Source: an uncultured Bacteroidales bacterium (GTDB lineage: Bacteria > Bacteroidota > Bacteroidia > Bacteroidales > UBA932). From it: 46,964 nucleotides of DNA. Below the pieces are notes generated by a model. That model was not told the origin of the DNA and made no database searches. It saw nothing but the letters and a program-made list of their open reading frames with translations. The stretch lies in NCBI GenBank assembly GCA_900319405.1, contig ONOH01000014.1:1-46964 (forward strand). The letters run 5' to 3'. Shown here in pieces: positions 3,041 to 37,254 of this stretch; the first letter of the stretch is position 1, and every line of letters begins with the position of its first letter. The position numbers and the translations under genes were made by a program.

Positions 3041-3115
3041 TTCGTGTGCAAAACAGGGGCCCTTTGCACACGAAAGCTCCCGCAAACACCGTCCGTGTGC
3101 ACCAAGGGCCGGTTG
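3041..3115. repeat. paired REP-like palindrome downstream of the RAYT gene
   Basis: First unit: TTCGTGTGCAAA (3041-3052) pairs perfectly with TTTGCACACGAA (3063-3074) around a 10-base G-rich loop. Second unit: TCCGTGTGCA at 3092-3101 begins exactly 51 bp after the equivalent base of the first, but its right arm is lost. The same pair structure occurs at 4183-4268 on the other side of the RAYT gene and at 12601-12686 inside tilS. Confidence 0.85.
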
Positions 3116-3136
3116 AGAAGCCACGAGCCAGGAAAC

Positions 3137-4045
3137 TTACGAGGATTTGGGAACGGGAAAAAACTGGTTCACCTGATCTATCGGAAGACGAAGAACCTGG
3201 GCAATTTGCTTGTTGCCGCTCATCAATTCCGCCTTCATCCGCCGGGCTGCCTCAAGGCGCTGATCCGGGAGCAGCAGGCTCACTGTCTTCACCTTATACC
3301 AGTCAGACACAATCCGGAAAACATCCTCATTGGGAAGTTGAATGATTTCTCCAATCCAACGGGCTGTTTCCGCATCTGCCTCCACTTTCCGTGTCAGCAT
3401 ATAAAAGTATTGATGGGCCGATTCAAAAAAAGCCTCAGCCCGACGATAGTCTACAAAACCTGAACGGAGGATGAGACCATCCAACACTTCCCAGGTAACG
3501 GGAAAGTCGATGATCCGGGACTGAACAATGCATCGCTTTTCCCTGTATGTCAGTTTATTGAAAGGGATTCCCCTTGAGCAGTGAGTTATGTTTTCATTGA
3601 ACATCAAGTGCGCACCGCTCCACCGATAACCCGTCGGTGTGACATCCCGTCCGGCCACATAAGGGTTACGTGAGATATACAAGATGGCATTCCGAAGATT
3701 GCGCAGATCACTGATGGGCTTGATCTGGATATCCCACTGCGCCAATGACGGATTCCCGCGTTTAATCTGGTAGCGGCTCATCATTTTCCGAAATCTATCT
3801 GCAAACTCCTCCACTTGGCCACACGGACCTTCGAATAGAAAATGCAGATGATTGTTCATTTCCACATCATTCAAAAGCCGTAGTTCCAATCCTGCCAAAG
3901 CCACTGCCATCATATTGGTCCCATCTTTGAATTCTTGCTCACTGCTGAATAGCAGCCACGGCAGATTCTCCGTGGTTACAATAAAGAACGGACCTCCTTC
4001 CCGAAAGATGCGCTCACACCTGTTTTCTCTTTCCCAATAGTTCAT
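3137..4045 (-). CDS. REP-associated tyrosine transposase (RAYT), Y1 HUH family
   Basis: Single-strand DNA nuclease/transposase-like protein of the IS200/IS605-related Y1 superfamily. The metal-binding HUH motif is H66-L67-H68 in DVEMNNHLHFLFEG. The segment LRNAILYISRNPYVAG (about 117-132) matches the family's Y-I-x-x-NP-x-x-AG region and holds the candidate catalytic Tyr (Tyr123; Tyr129 is the alternative). At 302 residues it is longer than the best known enterobacterial RAYTs (about 165). The extra C-terminal part ends in a helix-turn-helix-like stretch (NKQIAQVLRLPIDQVNQFF). RAYTs are single-copy, domesticated-looking genes thought to spread REP palindromes. Palindrome pairs flank this gene at 3041-3115 and 4183-4268, which strongly supports the call. 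The frame is intact and no terminal inverted repeats of an ordinary insertion sequence are seen. Confidence 0.85.
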   Translation of the reverse strand: MNYWERENRCERIFREGGPFFIVTTENLPWLLFSSEQEFKDGTNMMAVALAGLELRLLNDVEMNNHLHFLFEGPCGQVEEFADRFRKMMSRYQIKRGNPSLAQWDIQIKPISDLRNLRNAILYISRNPYVAGRDVTPTGYRWSGAHLMFNENITHCSRGIPFNKLTYREKRCIVQSRIIDFPVTWEVLDGLILRSGFVDYRRAEAFFESAHQYFYMLTRKVEADAETARWIGEIIQLPNEDVFRIVSDWYKVKTVSLLLPDQRLEAARRMKAELMSGNKQIAQVLRLPIDQVNQFFPVPKSS

Positions 4046-4182: not shown

Positions 4183-4268
4183 CTCCGTGTGCAAAACAGG
4201 GGGCATTTGCTCACGGAGGGACCAAAAAACAAGCTCCGTGTGCAAAACAGGGGTGTTTTGCACACGGA
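4183..4268. repeat. paired REP-like palindrome between dnaK and the RAYT gene
   Basis: Unit 1: 13-base arms at 4183-4195 and 4206-4218 with one mismatch. Unit 2: a perfect 14-bp stem, TCCGTGTGCAAAAC (4235-4248) with GTTTTGCACACGGA (4255-4268), and a 6-base loop. The shared GTGTGCAAA starts at 4187 and 4238, 51 bp apart. The pair lies 25-111 bp after the dnaK stop codon, so it may also stabilise the dnaK mRNA end or help stop transcription, although no long T run follows. Confidence 0.88.
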
Positions 4269-8024: not shown

Positions 8025-9281
8025 TTATCGGCGACCGCCGGAACGGGATCCTCCACCACCGCCGGAGGAAGAGCCGCCGCCGGAGCGGGAGCCGCCGCCA
8101 CCGGAATAGCCGCCGCCGGAATAACCGCCGCCGGAAGAGCGGGAAGAACTGCCTCCCGAATAGCTGCCGCCGGAATAACCGCCCGAAGAACGAGTGGAGC
8201 CGGAAGAGCGGGCGCTGCTGCTGCCGGAAGAACGGTATGTTCCGCTACCGGAAGAGGAGCGGGTGCTGCCGCCGGAAGAACGGTAGGTTCCGCTGCTGCC
8301 CGAAGAGCGGGTGTTCCCGCCGGAGCGATAACTGGTTCCGCCGGCCGAGGAGCGGCCCGCAGAGGTGCTGCCGGCAGAAGAAGCGCGGGTGGCCGGCGAA
8401 GTGCTGCGGACCGCGGAGCGGGTGCTGCGCGTTGCGGCGGAAGCACTGCGCGTAGCTGCCGAAGCGCTGCGCGTGGTGACGCCGGAGCGGCTGGAAGAGG
8501 CCGCACGGGTAGTCACTCCGGAGCGGCTGGAAGAGGCCGCACGGGTAGTCACTCCGGAACGGCCGGAAGAGGCCGATTTGGTGACGCCGGAGGCTCTGCT
8601 GCTGCGGGCCGAGGCATGACGCTCCGTCAGGCTGCGGCCGGCCGAACGGGAAGCGCCTCCGCGGGCGAAGGACTGTCCGGCATACGGGGTAGTGTGGTAG
8701 AAACCGCCTCCGCCCCATCCGTGGCCGTGGTAATAATAAGGTGCATAATACCCGTAGTGGATGCCGTAATAAGGACCGTACCAGGGCGAATAGAAGGGAT
8801 CGTGCCAGAAGGACCAGGCGAACGAACCGTAATAGGGACGGAAACGCCAGAAGTCGTAATAGTCATAAAACCACGGATCCCAGGCCCAGCGGTTGAAATA
8901 CCAGGAATTGTAGTACCAGGGGCTGTGCCAGTAATGGAAATCGCGGAAATACCAGGGGCCATATCCCCAAGCATAGTCGTACAACCAGGACGGGGTGACA
9001 TCCGTCACCAGGATATCGGCCCGGGTTGTGAACTGCACTTTCTTACCGGCCGGCACCACCAGGGTATCCCCCTGACTGTTGACGATATAGGCTTGGGATT
9101 GCTTGCTCTCTGCAAGAAGATTATCCAAATCGGAATTCACTGCAGCCACCTGGGTTGCAGGAACGACAGAAGGACGGGTATAGACACCGTCATCGTAGAC
9201 TTGTGTCTGAAGCTGGCTCACGGAAGAGCAGCCCAGGGCGGCGAAAGCCGCAACGGCATAGGCCAAAAAACTCTTTTTCAT
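8025..9281 (-). CDS. aromatic- and Ser/Arg/Gly-rich putative lipoprotein
   Basis: A 418-residue protein in three parts. Residues 1-18 form a lipoprotein-like signal with a loose lipobox (ALGC, Cys18, then SSVSQ). Residues about 90-200 are extremely rich in Tyr, Trp and Phe (runs such as WYYNSWYFNRWAWDPWF). Residues about 205-418 are Ser/Arg/Gly/Thr low complexity with a 12-residue repeat GVTTRAASSSRS and later SGG and YSGG repeats. No enzyme family is recognised. A strong Shine-Dalgarno-like AAGGAGGT lies 8 bases before the ATG, unusual for this phylum. The gene is divergent from proS and lies just upstream of the OmpP1-like gene. A surface or envelope structural role is a guess. Confidence 0.75.
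   Translation of the reverse strand: MKKSFLAYAVAAFAALGCSSVSQLQTQVYDDGVYTRPSVVPATQVAAVNSDLDNLLAESKQSQAYIVNSQGDTLVVPAGKKVQFTTRADILVTDVTPSWLYDYAWGYGPWYFRDFHYWHSPWYYNSWYFNRWAWDPWFYDYYDFWRFRPYYGSFAWSFWHDPFYSPWYGPYYGIHYGYYAPYYYHGHGWGGGGFYHTTPYAGQSFARGGASRSAGRSLTERHASARSSRASGVTKSASSGRSGVTTRAASSSRSGVTTRAASSSRSGVTTRSASAATRSASAATRSTRSAVRSTSPATRASSAGSTSAGRSSAGGTSYRSGGNTRSSGSSGTYRSSGGSTRSSSGSGTYRSSGSSSARSSGSTRSSGGYSGGSYSGGSSSRSSGGGYSGGGYSGGGGSRSGGGSSSGGGGGSRSGGRR
8482..8589 (-). repeat. 36-bp tandem repeat inside the lipoprotein gene
   Basis: Three direct copies of a 36-bp unit start at 8482, 8518 and 8554. The first two are nearly identical and the third is diverged. Each encodes a 12-residue unit of the SGVTTRAASSSR type, so copy-number change keeps the reading frame. 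Confidence 0.8.
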
Positions 9282-10918: not shown

Positions 10919-11956
10919 ATGAAAAAGTTATTTCTTATCATCGGCCTGACGGTTGCCTGCTTTACCGTACAGGCCCAGAATACACAGGAAGCGGCAGCAG
11001 AAGCTGCAGCGGCCCTCAGCGCAGCTGAAGACGTTCCCGAAGTGCCGCAGAAACCCCGCTACTGGGACACCGTCCTGCTGACCAACATCAACTTCGGCCA
11101 GACCTACCTTTCCCAGTGGGCCGCCGGCGGCTACAACAATGTTTCCCTGGCCGGCAACGTGGACCTGACCAACAAATTTGAGAAAGGAAAACTGCTGGGC
11201 GTGAACCGCCTCCAGTTGGACTACGGCTTCCTCTACAGTGCCGACAAGCCCATCCTGCAGAAAAATAAAGACCGCATCTACTTCGAAGCCAAGTGGGGCT
11301 ACGAATCCCCGGTGAAGAACATCGCATACTCGGCCAACTTCGACTTCAAGACGCAGTTTGACAACAACTACGCCTATGGAACGCCGGCCAGCGACGGAGA
11401 GGTCGAGCCCACCGTCCAGGACTGGCTCAACGCCCGTTCGCTCAAGTCCGGCTTCTTCGCTCCGGCCTACATCAATCTGGGTATCGGTGCCCTGTGGACC
11501 CCCGCCCCCTGGTTCTCCCTCAACGTGGCTCCCCTTTCCGGCGGCGCCGTCATCGTAGGGATTCCGGAACTCCGGAAAACCTACGGTATGGATCTGCGTT
11601 CGGTAGGGCTGGACGACTCGGTCGGGGAGAACTACCGCCCGGTGCGTATGGAATTCGGCGCCCAGATCAAGGCCGATATGGCCTGGGTCATCAACGATGT
11701 CTTCTCCTATACCACGCAGGCCACGCTCTTCTATAACTATCTTACGCCCAAAGTGGAACCCCGCATCACCTGGGACAACAAGATTTTCTGGAAGCTGCGC
11801 AAATTCTTTGCCCTCACCCTGTCCACCAACCTCATCTACGACCCGCGCGTGATCGTGAGAGATTCCAACAAGGACGGGAAACCCGACACCAAGGGCGTCC
11901 AGTTCAAGGAATTCCTGGAGTTCGGCTTCACCTACACCATTTCCCGCAAACACTGA
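10919..11956 (+). CDS. DUF3078 family secreted protein
   Basis: 345-residue exported protein with a signal peptide (MKKLFLIIGLTVACFTVQAQ). The mature part starts with an Ala/Glu-rich spacer and then the DUF3078 hallmark: WDTVLLTNINFGQTYLSQWAAGGYNNVSLAGN. The rest consists of alternating strands with aromatics and ends in FTYTISRKH, suggesting an outer-membrane or periplasmic beta structure. The function of the family is unknown. The start was set at the Met before the signal peptide; a GTG/ATG further upstream would lie inside proS. The stop TGA overlaps the tilS ATG (TGATG), so translation is coupled. Confidence 0.9.
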   Translation: MKKLFLIIGLTVACFTVQAQNTQEAAAEAAAALSAAEDVPEVPQKPRYWDTVLLTNINFGQTYLSQWAAGGYNNVSLAGNVDLTNKFEKGKLLGVNRLQLDYGFLYSADKPILQKNKDRIYFEAKWGYESPVKNIAYSANFDFKTQFDNNYAYGTPASDGEVEPTVQDWLNARSLKSGFFAPAYINLGIGALWTPAPWFSLNVAPLSGGAVIVGIPELRKTYGMDLRSVGLDDSVGENYRPVRMEFGAQIKADMAWVINDVFSYTTQATLFYNYLTPKVEPRITWDNKIFWKLRKFFALTLSTNLIYDPRVIVRDSNKDGKPDTKGVQFKEFLEFGFTYTISRKH

Positions 11957-13041
11957 TGCTGCTTGTTGCCGTCAGCGGAGGGATAGACTCCATGTGCCTT
12001 GCAGAAAAGGTCCGCCAGGGTGGCGGGCCTTTCGCCATTGCACACTGCAACTTCGGGCTCAGGGGAGAGGAGAGTGACGGCGACGAAGCCTTTGTCCGCT
12101 CCTGGGCCGCCTCTTATGGAATCCCCTGCCACGTTAAGCGCTTTGAAACCGAAGCGTTTGCGAAGGAACAGGGCATTTCCGTGGAAATGGCCGCACGCCG
12201 CCTCCGCTACCGCTGGTTCGGACAACTCTGCCGGAAGTTCGGCTACAAGGCCGTAGCGGTAGCCCACAATGCCAATGACAATGCGGAAACGCTGATTCTG
12301 AATCTGCTCCGAGGAACCGGCCTGCGCGGCCTGACGGGCATGAAGGAAGAAGGCTTCCTCCCGGACCCGGACCATGCCGACATTCCCCTTCTAAGGCCCC
12401 TTCTGGGAAACACCCGCGAAGACATCGAGGCCTTTGCCAAAGATAACGGTCTTTCATGGCGGGATGACGGAAGCAATGCCCGTAACAACTATAAACGCAA
12501 CATAGTCAGAAACCTTGTCTTCCCCGTCTTTGCCCGGATCAACCCTTCTTTTGTCCAGACCCTGAACCGGGACATGGCCCGTTTTGCCGAGGAGATGCAA
12601 TCCGTGTGCAAAAACGCCCACTTTTGCACACCGGCAGAGCAGAATGACGGCTCTGTGTGCAAAAAGACCCACTTTTGCACACCGGAGGAAATATCCATTG
12701 CCGAGGAGGCCTGGGACGGGAGCCTTCCGCTTAAGCAGCCGGAGGGGATGCTCATCCTGGATGCGGACAAGGCGGGCATCCCGGAAGGGACGGGACCCCT
12801 CATCGGCCCCTGGGAAAGCGGCGACTGGATTCGGCCGCTCGGAGCGCCGGGCAGAAAAAAAATGCAGGACTGGTTCACCGACCACCACATCCCGGCCGAT
12901 GAGAAGCCCTTCATTCCCCTGCTCCGCTCCCCGGCAGATCGCAAGCATATCCTGGCCGTCGTGCCTTTCTGTATAGACCATAGCGTGCGCGTAGGCAATT
13001 CCACCCGGAGAATTCTTCGGATATCCATGAAAAATGATTAA
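11956..13041 (+). CDS. tilS: tRNA(Ile)-lysidine synthase carrying a REP pair
   Basis: Modifies C34 of the tRNA-Ile CAU anticodon to lysidine. The PP-loop SGGIDS is at residues 7-12, followed by HCNFGLRGEESDGDEAFV and the conserved HNANDNAETLILNLLRGTG. The protein has 361 residues, shorter than many family members. Residues 216-243 are not family sequence: they are the translation of a palindrome pair (12601-12686) and read as two similar peptides, VCKNAHFCTP and VCKKTHFCTP. This insert lies between the catalytic N-terminal domain and the C-terminal tRNA-binding part, a place likely to accept extra residues, and the frame is kept. The tail after the insert still shows conserved features (IGPWESGDWIRPLG, KKMQDWFTDHHIP), so the gene is probably functional. 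Confidence 0.95.
   Translation: MLLVAVSGGIDSMCLAEKVRQGGGPFAIAHCNFGLRGEESDGDEAFVRSWAASYGIPCHVKRFETEAFAKEQGISVEMAARRLRYRWFGQLCRKFGYKAVAVAHNANDNAETLILNLLRGTGLRGLTGMKEEGFLPDPDHADIPLLRPLLGNTREDIEAFAKDNGLSWRDDGSNARNNYKRNIVRNLVFPVFARINPSFVQTLNRDMARFAEEMQSVCKNAHFCTPAEQNDGSVCKKTHFCTPEEISIAEEAWDGSLPLKQPEGMLILDADKAGIPEGTGPLIGPWESGDWIRPLGAPGRKKMQDWFTDHHIPADEKPFIPLLRSPADRKHILAVVPFCIDHSVRVGNSTRRILRISMKND
12601..12686. repeat. paired REP-like palindrome inside the tilS coding region
   Basis: Two hairpins with perfect 10-bp cores: GTGTGCAAAA (12604-12613) with TTTTGCACAC (12622-12631), and the same core at 12655-12664 with 12673-12682. The loops are 8 bases (acgcccac, agacccac). The units are 51 bp, or 17 codons, apart, as at the RAYT locus. 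By loop sequence they lie in the opposite direction to the copies around the RAYT gene. Confidence 0.9.
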
Positions 13042-14617: not shown

Positions 14618-14641
14618 ATTTTCACTGCGCTCAGAATGACA
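14616..14641 (+). repeat. short interspersed repeat of the HSERSEE type, copy 1
   Basis: GATTTTCACTGCGCTCAGAATGACA between gpmI and lpxD. It is one of three copies in the window (others at 21568-21593 and 33209-33234) with consensus GATTCTTCACTKCGYTCRGAATGACA. On the opposite strand it reads as the peptide CHSERSEE. It contains an ATG that should not be taken as the lpxD start. Confidence 0.75.
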
Positions 14642-14644
14642 AAT

Positions 14645-15634
14645 ATGGAACTTACCGCCAAATTCCTGGCCCAGCTCCTGAAGGGGACGGTGGAGGGGGA
14701 TGAAAACGCCAAAGCAAGCAAGTTTGCCAAGATTGAACATGGCAAAGCGGGAAGCCTGAGCTTTTTCGCCAATCCCAAATACGAGTCCTACGTCTATACC
14801 AGCGAGGCTTCCATCCTCATCGTGGACAGGACCTTCGAGCCCAAGCAGCCCGTGAGACCCACCCTGGTACGGGTAGACAACGCATACTCCGCCATCGCCG
14901 ACCTTCTCAAATACACGGCCGACAAACAGAAAAAAGCGCGACGCCACCGCAGCCTGAGGGCCCGCTGGTTCCTGAGCACCCGCTTCGGGAAAAAGGTCTA
15001 TCTGGGAGCGTTCTCCTATGTGGGCCATCACACCCGGGTGGGAGACAACACCATCATCCACGAGCATGTGTACATCGGTGACAACTGCACCATCGGCAAA
15101 AACTGCATCCTCTACCCCGGCGTCCGCATCTACCCCGGGATGGTTATCGGGGACAACGTCATCCTCCACAGCGGCGCCGTCATCGGGGCCGACGGCTTCG
15201 GCAACGCCCCGCGCGAGGACGGAAGCTGGGAGAAGATCGAACACCTGGGCAACGTGATTATCGGCAATGACGTGGAGATCGGGGCCAACACCACTATCGA
15301 CCGCGCCCAGATGGAGTCCACCATCATCGGCAACGGCGTCCGCATCGACAACCTGTGCATGATTGCCCACAACTGCATCATCGGAGACCACACCGTGATG
15401 GCCGCCCAGACCGGCATCGCAGGCTCCACCGAGGTGGGCAAGTACTGCATCTTCGGCGGACAGGTGGGAATCGCCGGGCACCTGAAGATCGCCGACCACA
15501 CCACCATCTGCGCCCAGGGCGGCGTTATCGGCCATATCCGGAAAGAAGGACAGGTGCTGCTGGGATCCCCCGTCATCGACGCGAAACAGTACATGAAGGC
15601 CTACGCCCTCTTCAAACAGGCCGCGCAGCAGTAG
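14645..15634 (+). CDS. lpxD: UDP-3-O-acylglucosamine N-acyltransferase
   Basis: Third enzyme of lipid A synthesis; it adds the second 3-hydroxyacyl chain from acyl-ACP. The N-terminal uridine-binding domain runs to about residue 100 ([25 protein letters not shown]). Then come hexapeptide repeats of a left-handed beta helix, with [27 protein letters not shown] and the catalytic-loop region [13 protein letters not shown]. The product has 329 residues from the chosen start, [14 protein letters not shown]; an ATG 9 bp upstream lies inside an interspersed repeat and is rejected. It precedes lpxC and lpxA, the normal Bacteroidota order. Confidence 0.96.
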
Positions 15635-21567: not shown

Positions 21568-21593
21568 GATTCTTCACTTCGTTCAGAATGACA
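21568..21593 (+). repeat. short interspersed repeat of the HSERSEE type, copy 2
   Basis: GATTCTTCACTTCGTTCAGAATGACA in the purM-purN gap. Relative to the direction of transcription it is inverted compared with copies 1 and 3. Confidence 0.75.
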
Positions 21594-21594
21594 A

Positions 21595-22623
21595 TTACGG
21601 GAGAATGACAACTCCGGGGCGGTCGGTCACGCGACCGATGACGGAGGCGTTTTCACCGTGGCTCCGGAGAATCTCGATGGCCCTGGGGGCCTCGGAGGCA
21701 TCCAGGACGGCAATCATTCCGATGCCCATATTGAAGATGTTGAACATTTCGCGGTGCGGAACGGCACCCCACTTTTCCAGCATCTTGAAAACGGGAAGTA
21801 TCTCCCAAGTTCCTTCTTGAATCTCCAGGCCCTGACCGGGCTTGAGTACACGCGGAATGTTCTCGTCAAAGCCGCCTCCCGTGATGTGGCAAATGCCGTG
21901 TACATCGCACTGGCGGATGACGTCCAGCATCTGCCGGACATAGATTTTCGTAGGGGTGAGAAGCACGTCTCCCAGCTTGGCGCCGCCGAATTCGGGGATG
22001 GCATCCTGATAGTCCAATCCGGCATCGGCCACGATCTTCCGAACCAGTGAGAAACCGTTGGAGTGCACACCGGTAGAAGCCACGCCCAGCAGAACGTCTC
22101 CCACTTTCACCTTGGAGCCGTCGATGAGCCGGGATTTCTCCACCACGCCGGTGGTGAAGCCGGCAATGTCATACTCGCCATCCTCGTACATTCCGGGCAT
22201 CTCGGCCGTTTCTCCACCCACGAGGGCGCAGCCGGCCTGACGGCAGCCTTCGGCCACCCCCGCCACAATGGCTTCTACCTTGGCAGGAACGTTGTGCCCC
22301 AGGGCTACATAATCCAGGAAAATGAGCGGCTCGGCCCCCTGGGCGAGGACGTCGTTGACGCACATCGCCACGGCATCGATGCCGATGCTGTCGTGCCGGT
22401 CCATCGCGAACGCAATCTTCAGTTTGGTTCCCACGCCGTCGGTGCCGCTCACCAGGACGGGGTCCTTCACGTTCAGGGCGGAAAGGTCAAACATGCCGCC
22501 AAAAGAGCCGATGTTGCCCATCGAGCCCGTGCGGGAGGTGGAAGCTACGTGCTGCTTGATGCGCCGCACCACTTCATATCCGGCTTCCAGGTTCACGCCG
22601 GAGGCTTCGTAAGATTTTGCCAT
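21595..22623 (-). CDS. purM: phosphoribosylformylglycinamidine cyclo-ligase (AIR synthetase)
   Basis: Fifth purine step, closing the imidazole ring. 342 residues, normal length. Visible are GVNLEAGYEVVRRIK at the N-terminus, VSGTDGVGTKLKIA, GIDAVAMCVNDVLAQGAEPLIFLDY, LVGGETAEMPGMY and, in the C-terminal half, HITGGGFDENIPR. It starts 1 bp after the purF stop codon. Confidence 0.98.
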   Translation of the reverse strand: MAKSYEASGVNLEAGYEVVRRIKQHVASTSRTGSMGNIGSFGGMFDLSALNVKDPVLVSGTDGVGTKLKIAFAMDRHDSIGIDAVAMCVNDVLAQGAEPLIFLDYVALGHNVPAKVEAIVAGVAEGCRQAGCALVGGETAEMPGMYEDGEYDIAGFTTGVVEKSRLIDGSKVKVGDVLLGVASTGVHSNGFSLVRKIVADAGLDYQDAIPEFGGAKLGDVLLTPTKIYVRQMLDVIRQCDVHGICHITGGGFDENIPRVLKPGQGLEIQEGTWEILPVFKMLEKWGAVPHREMFNIFNMGIGMIAVLDASEAPRAIEILRSHGENASVIGRVTDRPGVVILP

Positions 22624-33209: not shown

Positions 33210-33234
33210 ATTCTTCACTGCGTTCGGAATGACA
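33209..33234 (+). repeat. short interspersed repeat of the HSERSEE type, copy 3
   Basis: GATTCTTCACTGCGTTCGGAATGACA, beginning at the last base of the rimP stop codon, in the 49-bp rimP-nusA gap. Same direction as copy 1. Confidence 0.75.
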
Positions 33235-33258
33235 ATAAAATAATACAATCATAAACTA

Positions 33259-34554: not shown

Positions 34555-37254
34555 ATGGCAGATATCAGATTATCGAAACTTATCAAACAATTCAACATCG
34601 GGCTGGACACCCTGGTGGAATTCCTCAATTCCAAAGGCGCCGGTATCGAAGGTGCCAATCCCAATATGAAAGTATCGGACGAATTTCTTCCGGAACTTCA
34701 TAAAAAATTCGGGAAAGATCTGGAACTGAAGGAAGCCGCCGAAAAGGTGGACGTCAAGCTCACGGAGATCCTGGACAAGGCGTCCAAGAAACAGGAAAAT
34801 GATGAAGACGAGTTCGAACCCGAACGCGTGACGGTGATCAAGAGCAACAACCTGTCCCGCAACATCGTGGAACCCGAACCGGTCGTGGAGCCAGAGCCCG
34901 TGGCAGAGCCTGAACCGGAACCCGTGGTGGAAGCCGAGCCCGTGCCGGAGCCAGTGGCAGAACCGGAACCCGAACCGGTCGTGGAACCCGAGCCCGTGGC
35001 AGGGCCCGAACCGGAGCCTGAGACCAAGCCCCAGCCGGTCGAGGAAGCCGTTCCTGCCGAAGAATCCCAAGCCGATCAAGAGACTGAGCCGGCCCCAGCC
35101 GTAGAAGAGAAACCCGCCCCGACCCCAGCGGAAGCTCCCTTCAAGGTTGTGGGGAAAATCGACCTGTCCCAGTTCGACCCCAAAAAGAGCAAAAAACGCG
35201 AACGAATCAAGAGCAGCGGCTCCCAGAAGGTGGACGTCACCAAGGTCCAGGCCGAGAAACCTGTCAGAAAGAAAGATGAGCCCAAGAAGCCTGCCCGCGG
35301 CAAGAAGGGAGACCGATTCAAACCCGCCATGACCGAGGCCGAGCAGGAAGAGATGCAGAAGGAAATCCAGAAGCAGGTAAAGGAAACTTACGCCCGGATG
35401 AACGAGACAAAGAGCTTCGGCGCCAAGCACCGCAAGGAAAAGCGCGAGATAGCCGCCATCCGCAGCCAGGAAGAGATGGAAGCCGCCGCCGCGGAGAACA
35501 AGGTCCTGAAAGTAACGGAGTTCGTAACCGTAAACGACCTGGCCACCCTGATGAACAATACGCCGGTGGTGAAGGTCATCGGTGCCTGCATGTCCCTGGG
35601 AATGATGGTATCCATCAACCAGCGCCTGGATGCCGAAACCCTGGTCCTGGTGGCCGAGGAGTTCGGATACAAAGTGGAATTCGTCACCGCCGAACTGAGC
35701 GAGGAGGTCAAGCAGCAGGAGCCCGACCGCGAGGAAGACCTGGTGGAGCGCCCGCCCGTAATCACCGTGATGGGCCACGTTGACCACGGAAAGACTTCCC
35801 TGCTGGACAACATCCGCAACTCCAACGTGATTGCCGGTGAGGCCGGCGGTATCACCCAGCACATCGGCGCCTACCACGTTACGCTACCCAGCGGCCGCAC
35901 CATCACCTTCCTGGACACGCCCGGTCACGAGGCCTTCACCGCCATGCGTGCCCGCGGCGCCCAGATGACGGACTTGGCCGTGATTATCGTAGCCGCCGAC
36001 GACGCCGTGATGCCCCAGACCAAGGAAGCCATCGCGCACGCACAGGCCGCCGGCGTCCCCATGGTCTTCGCCATCAACAAAATTGACAAGCCCGGTGCCA
36101 ATGCCGACACCATCCGCCGCCAGCTATCCGAGATGAACATTCTGGTGGAAGACTGGGGCGGCAAGTTCCAGTGCCAGGAAATATCTGCCAAGAAAGGCAT
36201 CAATGTGGACAAGCTCCTGGAGAAGGTGCTTTTCGAGACCGACCTTCTGGAACTCAAAGCCAATCCCAACAAACTGGGAAGCGGTGCAGTCATCGAAAGC
36301 TCCCTGGACAAGGGTCGCGGCTACCTGGCCACGGTGCTGGTACAGGACGGCACGGTAAACGTAGGAGACGTCATCATCTCCGGAAGCTTTTACGGACGCG
36401 TCAAGGCCATGTACAACGAACGTGGACAAAAGGTGGAGAGCGCCGGTCCTTCCACTCCCGTGAGCCTGCTGGGCCTGAACGGTGCCCCCGCCGCCGGTGA
36501 GAAGTTCAACATCATGGCAGACGAAAAAGAAGCCAAGTCCATCGCCCAGAAGCGGGAGCAGCTCATCCGCATCCAGGGCATCAAGACGCAGAAGCACCTC
36601 ACCCTCGAGGAAATCGGCCGCCGTATCGCCATCGGCAACTTCAAGGAACTCAACGTCATCGTCAAGGGCGACGTGGACGGTTCCGTGGAAGCCCTCTCCG
36701 ATTCCCTCATCAAGCTTTCCACCGAGGAAGTGCGCGTGAATGTGATCCACAAGGCCGTGGGCGCCATCTCCGAGAGCGATGTCCTGCTGGCCGAGGCCTC
36801 GGATGCCGTAATCATCGGCTTCCAGGTACGTCCCAGCGCCGAAGCCCGCCGCAGCGCGGAGAAGGAAGGCATCGAAATCCGCCTCTACTCCGTCATTTAC
36901 GACTGCATCAACGAGGTGAAGGAAGGTATCGAGGGTATGCTGGAGCCGGAAAAGAGGGAAGAGGTCACCGCTACGGCCGAGGTCAAGCAAATCTTCAAGA
37001 TTTCCAAGGTGGGCACCATCGCGGGCTGCCAGGTGAAAGAAGGAAAGCTCACCAACAAGGCCCAGGTTCGCCTGATACGGGACGGCATCGTGGTGTACAC
37101 CGGAGAGCTTTCCTCCCTGCAGAGAGGAAAGGACAACGCCAAGGAAGTGCCCGCCGGCATGGAATGCGGCTGCGGTCTGGAGCGTTACAACGACATCCAC
37201 CCCGGAGACATCATCGAAGCCTTCCAGATTGTGGAAATCAAGCGAAGCCTGTAA
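34555..37254 (+). CDS. infB: translation initiation factor IF-2
   Basis: GTPase placing initiator tRNA on the ribosome. 899 residues. The IF2-N domain is at the start; residues about 100-180 form an acidic Pro/Glu/Val repeat region ([17 protein letters not shown] type), then a basic Lys-rich stretch. The GTPase begins near 400 with G1 GHVDHGKT, G3 DTPGHEAF and G4 NKID; domains II, III and IV follow ([32 protein letters not shown]). It sits 27 bp after nusA and ends 6 bp from the convergent MauE/DoxX-like gene without a visible terminator. Confidence 0.98.
34867..35050 (+). repeat. Pro-Glu-Pro codon repeat in infB
   Basis: An imperfect tandem array of CCC-GAA-CC and GTG-GAG codons encodes repeated EPEPV units in the disordered N-terminal part of IF-2. 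The length probably varies between strains. Confidence 0.7.

Follow-up and report, generated by a model that had tools for sequence, protein, structure and literature searches.

We found that two palindromes lying in frame within the tilS gene of an uncultured Bacteroidales bacterium belong to the family of REP hairpins that accompanies a RAYT-like transposase gene on the same stretch of DNA. We put at about 0.75 the probability that these are REP hairpins of a RAYT family and that the linker of tRNA(Ile)-lysidine synthetase (TilS) is a recurrent safe harbour for palindromic repeats in a clade of rumen Bacteroidales. The window –the whole stretch of DNA that was analysed– is contig ONOH01000014.1, 46,964 nucleotides long. 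We document the family identity of the repeats, their frame and site, their turnover on a tree, the match between linker and RAYT-associated REPs of the same genome, and empty sites in an aminotransferase gene. Mobile hairpins combined with purifying selection give the simplest account.

Results

A REP pair in frame within tilS

The window contains a short form of tilS, with two palindromic units in its interdomain linker:

11956..13041, + strand: tilS, tRNA(Ile)-lysidine synthetase, short form, 361 aa (TIGR02432 8e-51, TIGR02433 7.2e-07, PF01171 2.7e-48, PF11734 1.7e-05)
12592..12681, + strand: TilS interdomain linker as measured, residues 213-242, a variable region with repeat elements in 49/60 compared sequences
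12601..12634, + strand: REP unit 1, a 34-nt palindrome that encodes VCKNAHFCTP (direct repeat)
12635..12651, + strand: 17-nt spacer separating the REP units (start-to-start spacing 51)
12652..12685, + strand: REP unit 2, 34 nt, encodes VCKKTHFCTP, 91% identity with unit 1

The initial annotation had described a REP pair in frame at TilS residues 216-243, with units spaced by 17 codons, and both points are borne out: VCKNAHFCTP and VCKKTHFCTP are read without a stop, and the copies lie 51 nt apart. It had placed the element at 12601..12686; the start stands, and the end is corrected, since the second copy stops at 12685. The idea that the pair behaves as a protein insert between the two domains agrees with an AlphaFold2 model of the window's TilS (31-row alignment, mean pLDDT 86.5), where the sole stretch with pLDDT below 50, residues 222-239, falls within the REP-encoded peptide. 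The same residues in distant TilS proteins had been named as the outcome that would speak against an insertion; none of the 59 other linkers compared below reads the VCKNAHFCTP/VCKKTHFCTP residues.

The window has 11 occurrences of TTTTGCACAC with at most one mismatch, where 2.39 would be expected, and 0 of 100 shuffles reach that number. Rfam at gathering thresholds gave no match for the five loci searched. The tilS pair matches the REP pair adjoining the RAYT-like gene, 8 kb away, without gaps and with 65% identity over 81 nt.

A RAYT-like gene between REP pairs

The transposase gene and its flanking units are as follows:

3137..4045, - strand: RAYT-like HUH tyrosine transposase, 302 aa (invariant HxH/Tyr/Asn, sub-threshold profile matches, REP pairs either side)
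3041..3074, + strand: REP unit downstream of the RAYT-like gene (exact-pattern search)
3092..3125, + strand: degenerate second REP unit, 51 nt from the 3041 unit (read by eye)
4184..4217, + strand: REP unit upstream of the RAYT-like gene (window repeat search)
4235..4268, + strand: second of the two upstream REP units, spaced 51 nt from the 4184 unit (exact-pattern search)

We call the gene RAYT-like because its membership rests on sub-threshold profile matches to protein families. NCBIfam REP_Tyr_transpos (NF047646) matched the window's protein at E 0.0015 with 18.4 bits, far below the cut-off of 80, and this profile of REP-associated tyrosine transposases matched 12 of 20 RAYT-like sequences at E <= 0.01 (best 1.9e-05). 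Pfam Y1_Tnp matched 1/20. A profile of the RAYT-like proteins gave 4er8 (TnpArep) as its sole match in the PDB, at E 0.052; the same search with the window's sequence alone gave no match. A single-sequence structure model of the protein had a mean pLDDT of 37 and was set aside. Across 20 aligned sequences, with the window's among them, residues H65, H67, Y122 and N126 (the HxH motif, the tyrosine and the RN that follows) do not vary, and they are probably catalytic.

Relatives of this protein were present in 28/28 searched genomes, with 2 to 9 per genome. Of 70 RAYT loci we analysed 63. Neighbouring hairpins there had a pitch of 51 nt in 12 cases, of 52 nt in another 12, and a different one in 8. 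Flanking REPs that recur in the genome, as expected of a REPtron, were found in the window (3041/3092 and 4184/4235) and at contig C34 of genome G004. Upstream and downstream REPs with at least 0.65 identity occurred at eight of the 63 loci, all eight in direct and none in inverted orientation; in the window the margin is small (0.85 vs 0.74) because the REP units are near-symmetric. Published RAYTs, as described in PMC2817692, have inverted REPs on their flanks.

REP arrays in the genome of the window

The pattern GTGTGCA-N(8-22)-TGCACAC occurs 13 times in the whole genome (G000), and its reversed control 0 times. With degenerate partners counted, these exact-pattern units form eight arrays, each a pair or triple at 51-nt pitch; by frame reading, two lie inside genes (tilS and an aminotransferase gene), both in frame, and the other six are intergenic. 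At 34 nt and 13 exact-pattern units, the element has the size and recurrence of a canonical REP, an imperfect palindrome of 20-40 nt repeated in the genome. More than 100 copies are called usual in PMC2817692, a number not reached here. Canonical REPs also carry a GT[AG]G foot (described in PMC6006769), which was absent at the hairpin from the window's REP units when read by eye.

The second genic array consists of three REP units in the aminotransferase (L002, PF00155), a gene found in 13/15 searched genomes. Its array site measures 162 nt in G000, 15-18 nt in six of 12 relatives, and 39-132 nt in the other six, and 13/13 site lengths are multiples of three. On this sequence comparison, the array is an in-frame gain in G000, and relatives show empty sites.

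Open frames were frequent in the six intergenic arrays of G000 (32/36 vs 21.8 in shuffles) and in seven arrays of G004, its genic one included (29/42 vs 24.2), an excess that does not show selection, since the REP copies are mutually related.

Other repeats are also present in the window. A TTCACTGCGCTCAGAATGACA-like repeat has three copies (14621-14648, 21573-21600 and 33214-33241) and is the same sort of repeat as the TGTCATTCTGAGCG element carried by G028 in its tilS linker (L025). Short degenerate repeats make up two further stretches (34869-35117 and 8056-8577).

The TilS linker across relatives

A tilS search in 400 genomes of the genus gave 344 at E <= 1e-60; in an earlier draw from the genus, tilS had been found in 100/101 genomes at E <= 0.001. 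For the short form we took 61 loci, namely all rows to E 2.8e-103 plus that of G005. The latter (L109) was dropped for N runs and one linker stop, which left 60 sequences from 59 genomes, with G180 supplying two loci (L082 and L101). The sequence of G166 (L088) was kept; it has one TAA within the match and may be broken. Judged from the names seen, the compared genomes are MAGs or uncultured assemblies; the named neighbours are uncultured rumen and gut Bacteroidales, one of them Candidatus Cryptobacteroides onthequi, and the genus is probably Cryptobacteroides. As a side observation, the G180 assembly holds two different short tilS genes, by contamination or as a second copy.

With N- and C-ends set by separate tblastn matches, all 60 linkers are stop-free and a multiple of three in length. 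Repeat elements of six types were present in 49/60, with classes assigned manually from repeats, clusters and reading: 12 linkers are of REP type, 22 hold a longer hairpin element that we call M, 4 hold both, 7 have TGGACCWGGTCCA repeats, 2 have AAAACTTTTTC palindromes, 2 have single others, and 11 have no recognised element. The last group consists of 17-42 aa of other sequence, and a true empty site at the window's position was not found among the 60 linkers.

The linker elements also recur elsewhere in their genomes. Element M gave 4-29 matches in each of 18/18 genomes, and many matches cover a 40-nt part of its core. The sequence TTGGACCWGGTCCA gave 5-47 matches (both strands counted) in seven carrier genomes; among six non-carriers, five had 0 and G396 had 18.

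A loss of the TilS middle domain in the clade is suggested by the alignment. Pfam finds no such domain in longer relatives either, and we do not claim it.

Ten of 16 REP-type linkers match a RAYT locus in their genome

We compared the linkers of 28 genomes, 16 of REP type and 12 others, with the fetched RAYT loci. Ten of the 16 REP-type linkers match a RAYT locus of their own genome over 78-86 columns at E <= 5.4e-5. Nine of these matches are gapless and one (G348) has a 2-nt gap; the distance to the RAYT is within ~210 nt for nine of them and ~830 nt for that of G141. The G224 linker adds an eleventh, weak match to its own RAYT locus. Non-REP linkers gave 0/12, bar one 15-nt match at E 2.4. 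The loci fetched were unevenly spread: some REP-type genomes contributed more, most other genomes one or two, and G057 none; when only the first RAYT locus per genome is counted, the figures are 8/16 for REP-type linkers vs 0/11 for others. Since arms are shared among related genomes, the RAYT locus of a different genome gives a REP match that is as good or better for most of the ten.

Turnover on the tree

The tree was built from the flanking domains of tilS, with the linker excluded, by a quick method that leaves 22/57 inner branches open. An inner clade of 49 rows (SH-aLRT 95) has elements in 47, and nine of the 11 element-free rows fall outside it, with G341 and G188 inside. The best tree requires 20 changes of element type; when only well-supported branches are counted, the number needed is lower (M 6, REP 5, none 2, REP plus M 2, and type V 1).

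Close relatives differ in what they carry. The sisters G224 (REP) and G364 (M) have 90% identity in N-domain DNA, and G019 and G318, at 88%, likewise differ as REP vs M. The REP pair of G362 stands by itself; in G310 a nearly identical pair has M behind it. In G057 (L027) and G253 (L084) an identical element of 137 nt stands in opposite orientations at the same place and is open both ways; their tilS genes are 85% identical in N-domain DNA and 80% in C-part DNA.

These data bear on the strongest alternative, namely that a REP pair entered tilS once in the ancestor and its arms have since been rewritten from each genome's current REPs by gene conversion or template switching, without new insertions. 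We regard this as a serious contender, at somewhat under even odds. It would explain why eight REP-type linkers with several arm sequences agree on where the A-rich core begins (linker nucleotide 18, codon phase 0), and why the best self-match lag is 51 nt in 12 of 16 REP-type linkers; G362 and G310 also fit, with a shared pair and M added behind it in G310. The shared core position hints that a REP pair may persist as new arm sequences are written into it. However, sisters with REP vs M, or V vs M, require replacement or new insertion, and the A-rich spacer occurs in several RAYT-flank pairs too and is therefore no marker of descent. We favour repeated arrival of mobile hairpins at the linker.

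REPs and element M in other genes

In G004, one of eight examined array loci is clearly genic, although four of the eight end at a contig end near the array, so their setting is unsure. The genic pair lies in an mnmE-like gene (L285), in the loop after KVD; it is in frame at 52-nt pitch, with its two units in different phases. A different REP-like pair occupies the same post-KVD loop of the mnmE-like gene in G011 (L291). The initial annotation had suggested that an element open to read-through could be selected to enter genes. That a stop-free design divisible by three is what lets a REP do so is left without support by the 52-nt pair of G004, and for the same reason we rejected a three-divisible pitch as the key to gene entry; a stop-free design as a driver of entry is possible.

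Element M (L305-L354) has a conserved core of ~90 nt, open in 4/6 frames, and inverted arms that vary between copies. It was found in 42/101 genomes of the genus draw (E <= 1e-6). The 50 loci taken, the first 20 picked by hand and the other 30 automatically, included three duplicates (L327, L328 and L333) and one tilS (L325), leaving 46 distinct non-tilS loci. Pfam was run on 20 hand-chosen frames spanning the element, so that the figure of 20/46 distinct non-tilS copies whose open frame carries a Pfam domain comes from these. Pfam matches flank or span the element in 13 of the 20, and in three there is a second matching stretch of unstated place.

The hosts include a Mur ligase, a diaminopimelate epimerase (dapF type), a pterin-binding enzyme (folP type), a MiaB-type enzyme, TldD/PmbA, a SpoU methylase and, in the window's own genome, a pyruvate-dehydrogenase-type E2. 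Like the Rickettsia palindromic elements (RPE) as described, M is a palindromic repeat that many genes of unrelated function contain in frame. In the FAD synthetase-riboflavin kinase (ribF type) of three species it stands between the two domains, and in an APH-RapZ protein (L335 of G069 and L337 of G064) at about the same place in opposite orientations. The names mnmE, murE, folP and ribF come from reading the sequences and their Pfam domains, with mnmE and ligA assigned without a family-library run.

Folding of the linkers

A simple search for palindromes failed to set the linkers apart: with 9/10 arm bases it marked 18/60 linkers vs 42/60 N flanks and 8/60 C flanks, and with 10/10 arm bases 5/60 linkers, 13/60 N flanks, 0/60 C flanks and 1/17 longer TilS genes. 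For this reason we used folding z-scores. RNA folding was compared with plain and with dinucleotide shuffles; the z-scores given here are from the latter. The mean z was -4.14 for 49 element linkers, 0.19 for the 11 without elements and -0.19 for 60 N-domain controls, and z fell below -2 in 37/49, 0/11 and 2/60, respectively.

Strong folding could itself be what is selected, if an mRNA hairpin slows the ribosome so that the PP-loop domain folds first; any hairpin would then serve and its loss would be disfavoured. We consider this unlikely. Elements in 47/49 inner-clade rows, from unrelated families, and the many strongly folding element linkers are in its favour, yet G341, G188 and the basal rows have no recognised element, none of such linkers folds strongly, and hairpins are what such mobile repeats form in any case.

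Far less probable is that the insert goes unread, with ribosome bypass or RNA splicing removing its residues from the protein. Strong hairpins within coding sequence resemble bypass elements, but bypass would need neither the three-divisible length nor the absence of stops seen in 60/60 linkers. Finally, an ordinary fast-evolving low-complexity linker with palindromes by chance is scarcely credible: linkers do diverge fast in any protein and the palindrome search did not set them apart, but M and TTGGACCWGGTCCA recur elsewhere in the same genomes and matches lie near RAYTs.

Discussion

At the level of mechanism, we suggest that a REP hairpin pair of the window's RAYT-flanking family was placed in the disordered TilS linker, where it would be translated as a spacer. 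Several unrelated families (RAYT-type REP pairs, M, TGGACCWGGTCCA repeats and others) may land or recombine in this linker, where the elements appear to replace one another and to invert in place. An element would be kept only when its frame is open and its length divisible by three. Arrivals may be frequent and most genic ones lost, and the survivors in tolerant linkers would become sites for further exchange.

Parts of this account are inferred. The RAYT-like protein probably moves the REPs, the linker peptide is likely a neutral spacer, and hairpins already in place may make the arrival of new ones, or conversion, more likely. The account is weakened in that movement is read from sequence comparison.

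A broader view can be offered tentatively, and we hold it doubtful at present: rumen Cryptobacteroides-like bacteria may harbour an ecology of coding palindromes to which three or more unrelated families belong. Housekeeping enzymes (tilS, ribF, Mur ligase, mnmE and others) might offer their interdomain linkers and loops as shared landing sites selected to stay receptive, with linker hairpins being exchanged, inverted and rewritten in step with the resident transposase, so that mobile DNA would have become the normal source of linker sequence in these proteins.

Coding palindromes have so far been reported from Rickettsia and scattered REP-bearing bacteria. Here, one linker of one essential gene, in dozens of related species and with many hairpin repeats, provides a series of natural experiments, together with ten genomes that have a likely transposase whose own repeats match the linker. 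This makes REP movement, the tolerance of linkers, and mobile repeats as a source of new protein sequence in essential enzymes testable.

Comparison with known systems

The nearest precedent is that of the GTAG/CGTC REPs, for which PMC3733652 describes intragenic dimers in frame that encode 20-30 aa in several repair and RNA-modification genes, as well as recB, where two Xanthomonas species carry different REPs at nearly the same site. In both systems REP dimers sit in frame within genes, and since such REPs, the recB case included, already appear in PMC3733652, the kind of event is known. Apart from recB, the genes hit there belong to the same categories but are hit at different sites, whereas here one linker is occupied in 49/60 sequences by six types that replace one another. 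Our REPs, unlike the GTAG/CGTC ones, lack the GT[AG]G foot.

Element M fits the description of the RPE (Ogata 2000, 2002, via PMC10969869 and PMC3733652), a palindromic element of ~150 bp in frame in many unrelated genes. The likeness is one of description, as summarised in those two sources; the RPE belongs to another phylum, and in M the core is conserved and the arms vary from copy to copy.

For the transposase, the nearest relative described in PMC6006769 is RAYT/TnpA_REP subclass 2.6 of Bacteroidetes, an HUH gene with atypical flanking hairpins and copies elsewhere in the genome. That subclass is tabled there at 179 aa, whereas the RAYT-like proteins here have ~300 aa and direct arrays at 51 or 52 nt. 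The same source describes TnpA_REP genes of subclass 2.4 that contain in-frame REPs in a permissive surface region, as here; the host in that case is the TnpA_REP gene, and in ours an unrelated enzyme.

In the open-access literature searched, we found no report of a palindromic or REP in-frame insertion in tilS or its variable linker. What is new relative to that literature is one linker occupied in 49/60 sequences with repeated replacement, its match to RAYT loci, and an RPE-like family in Bacteroidales.
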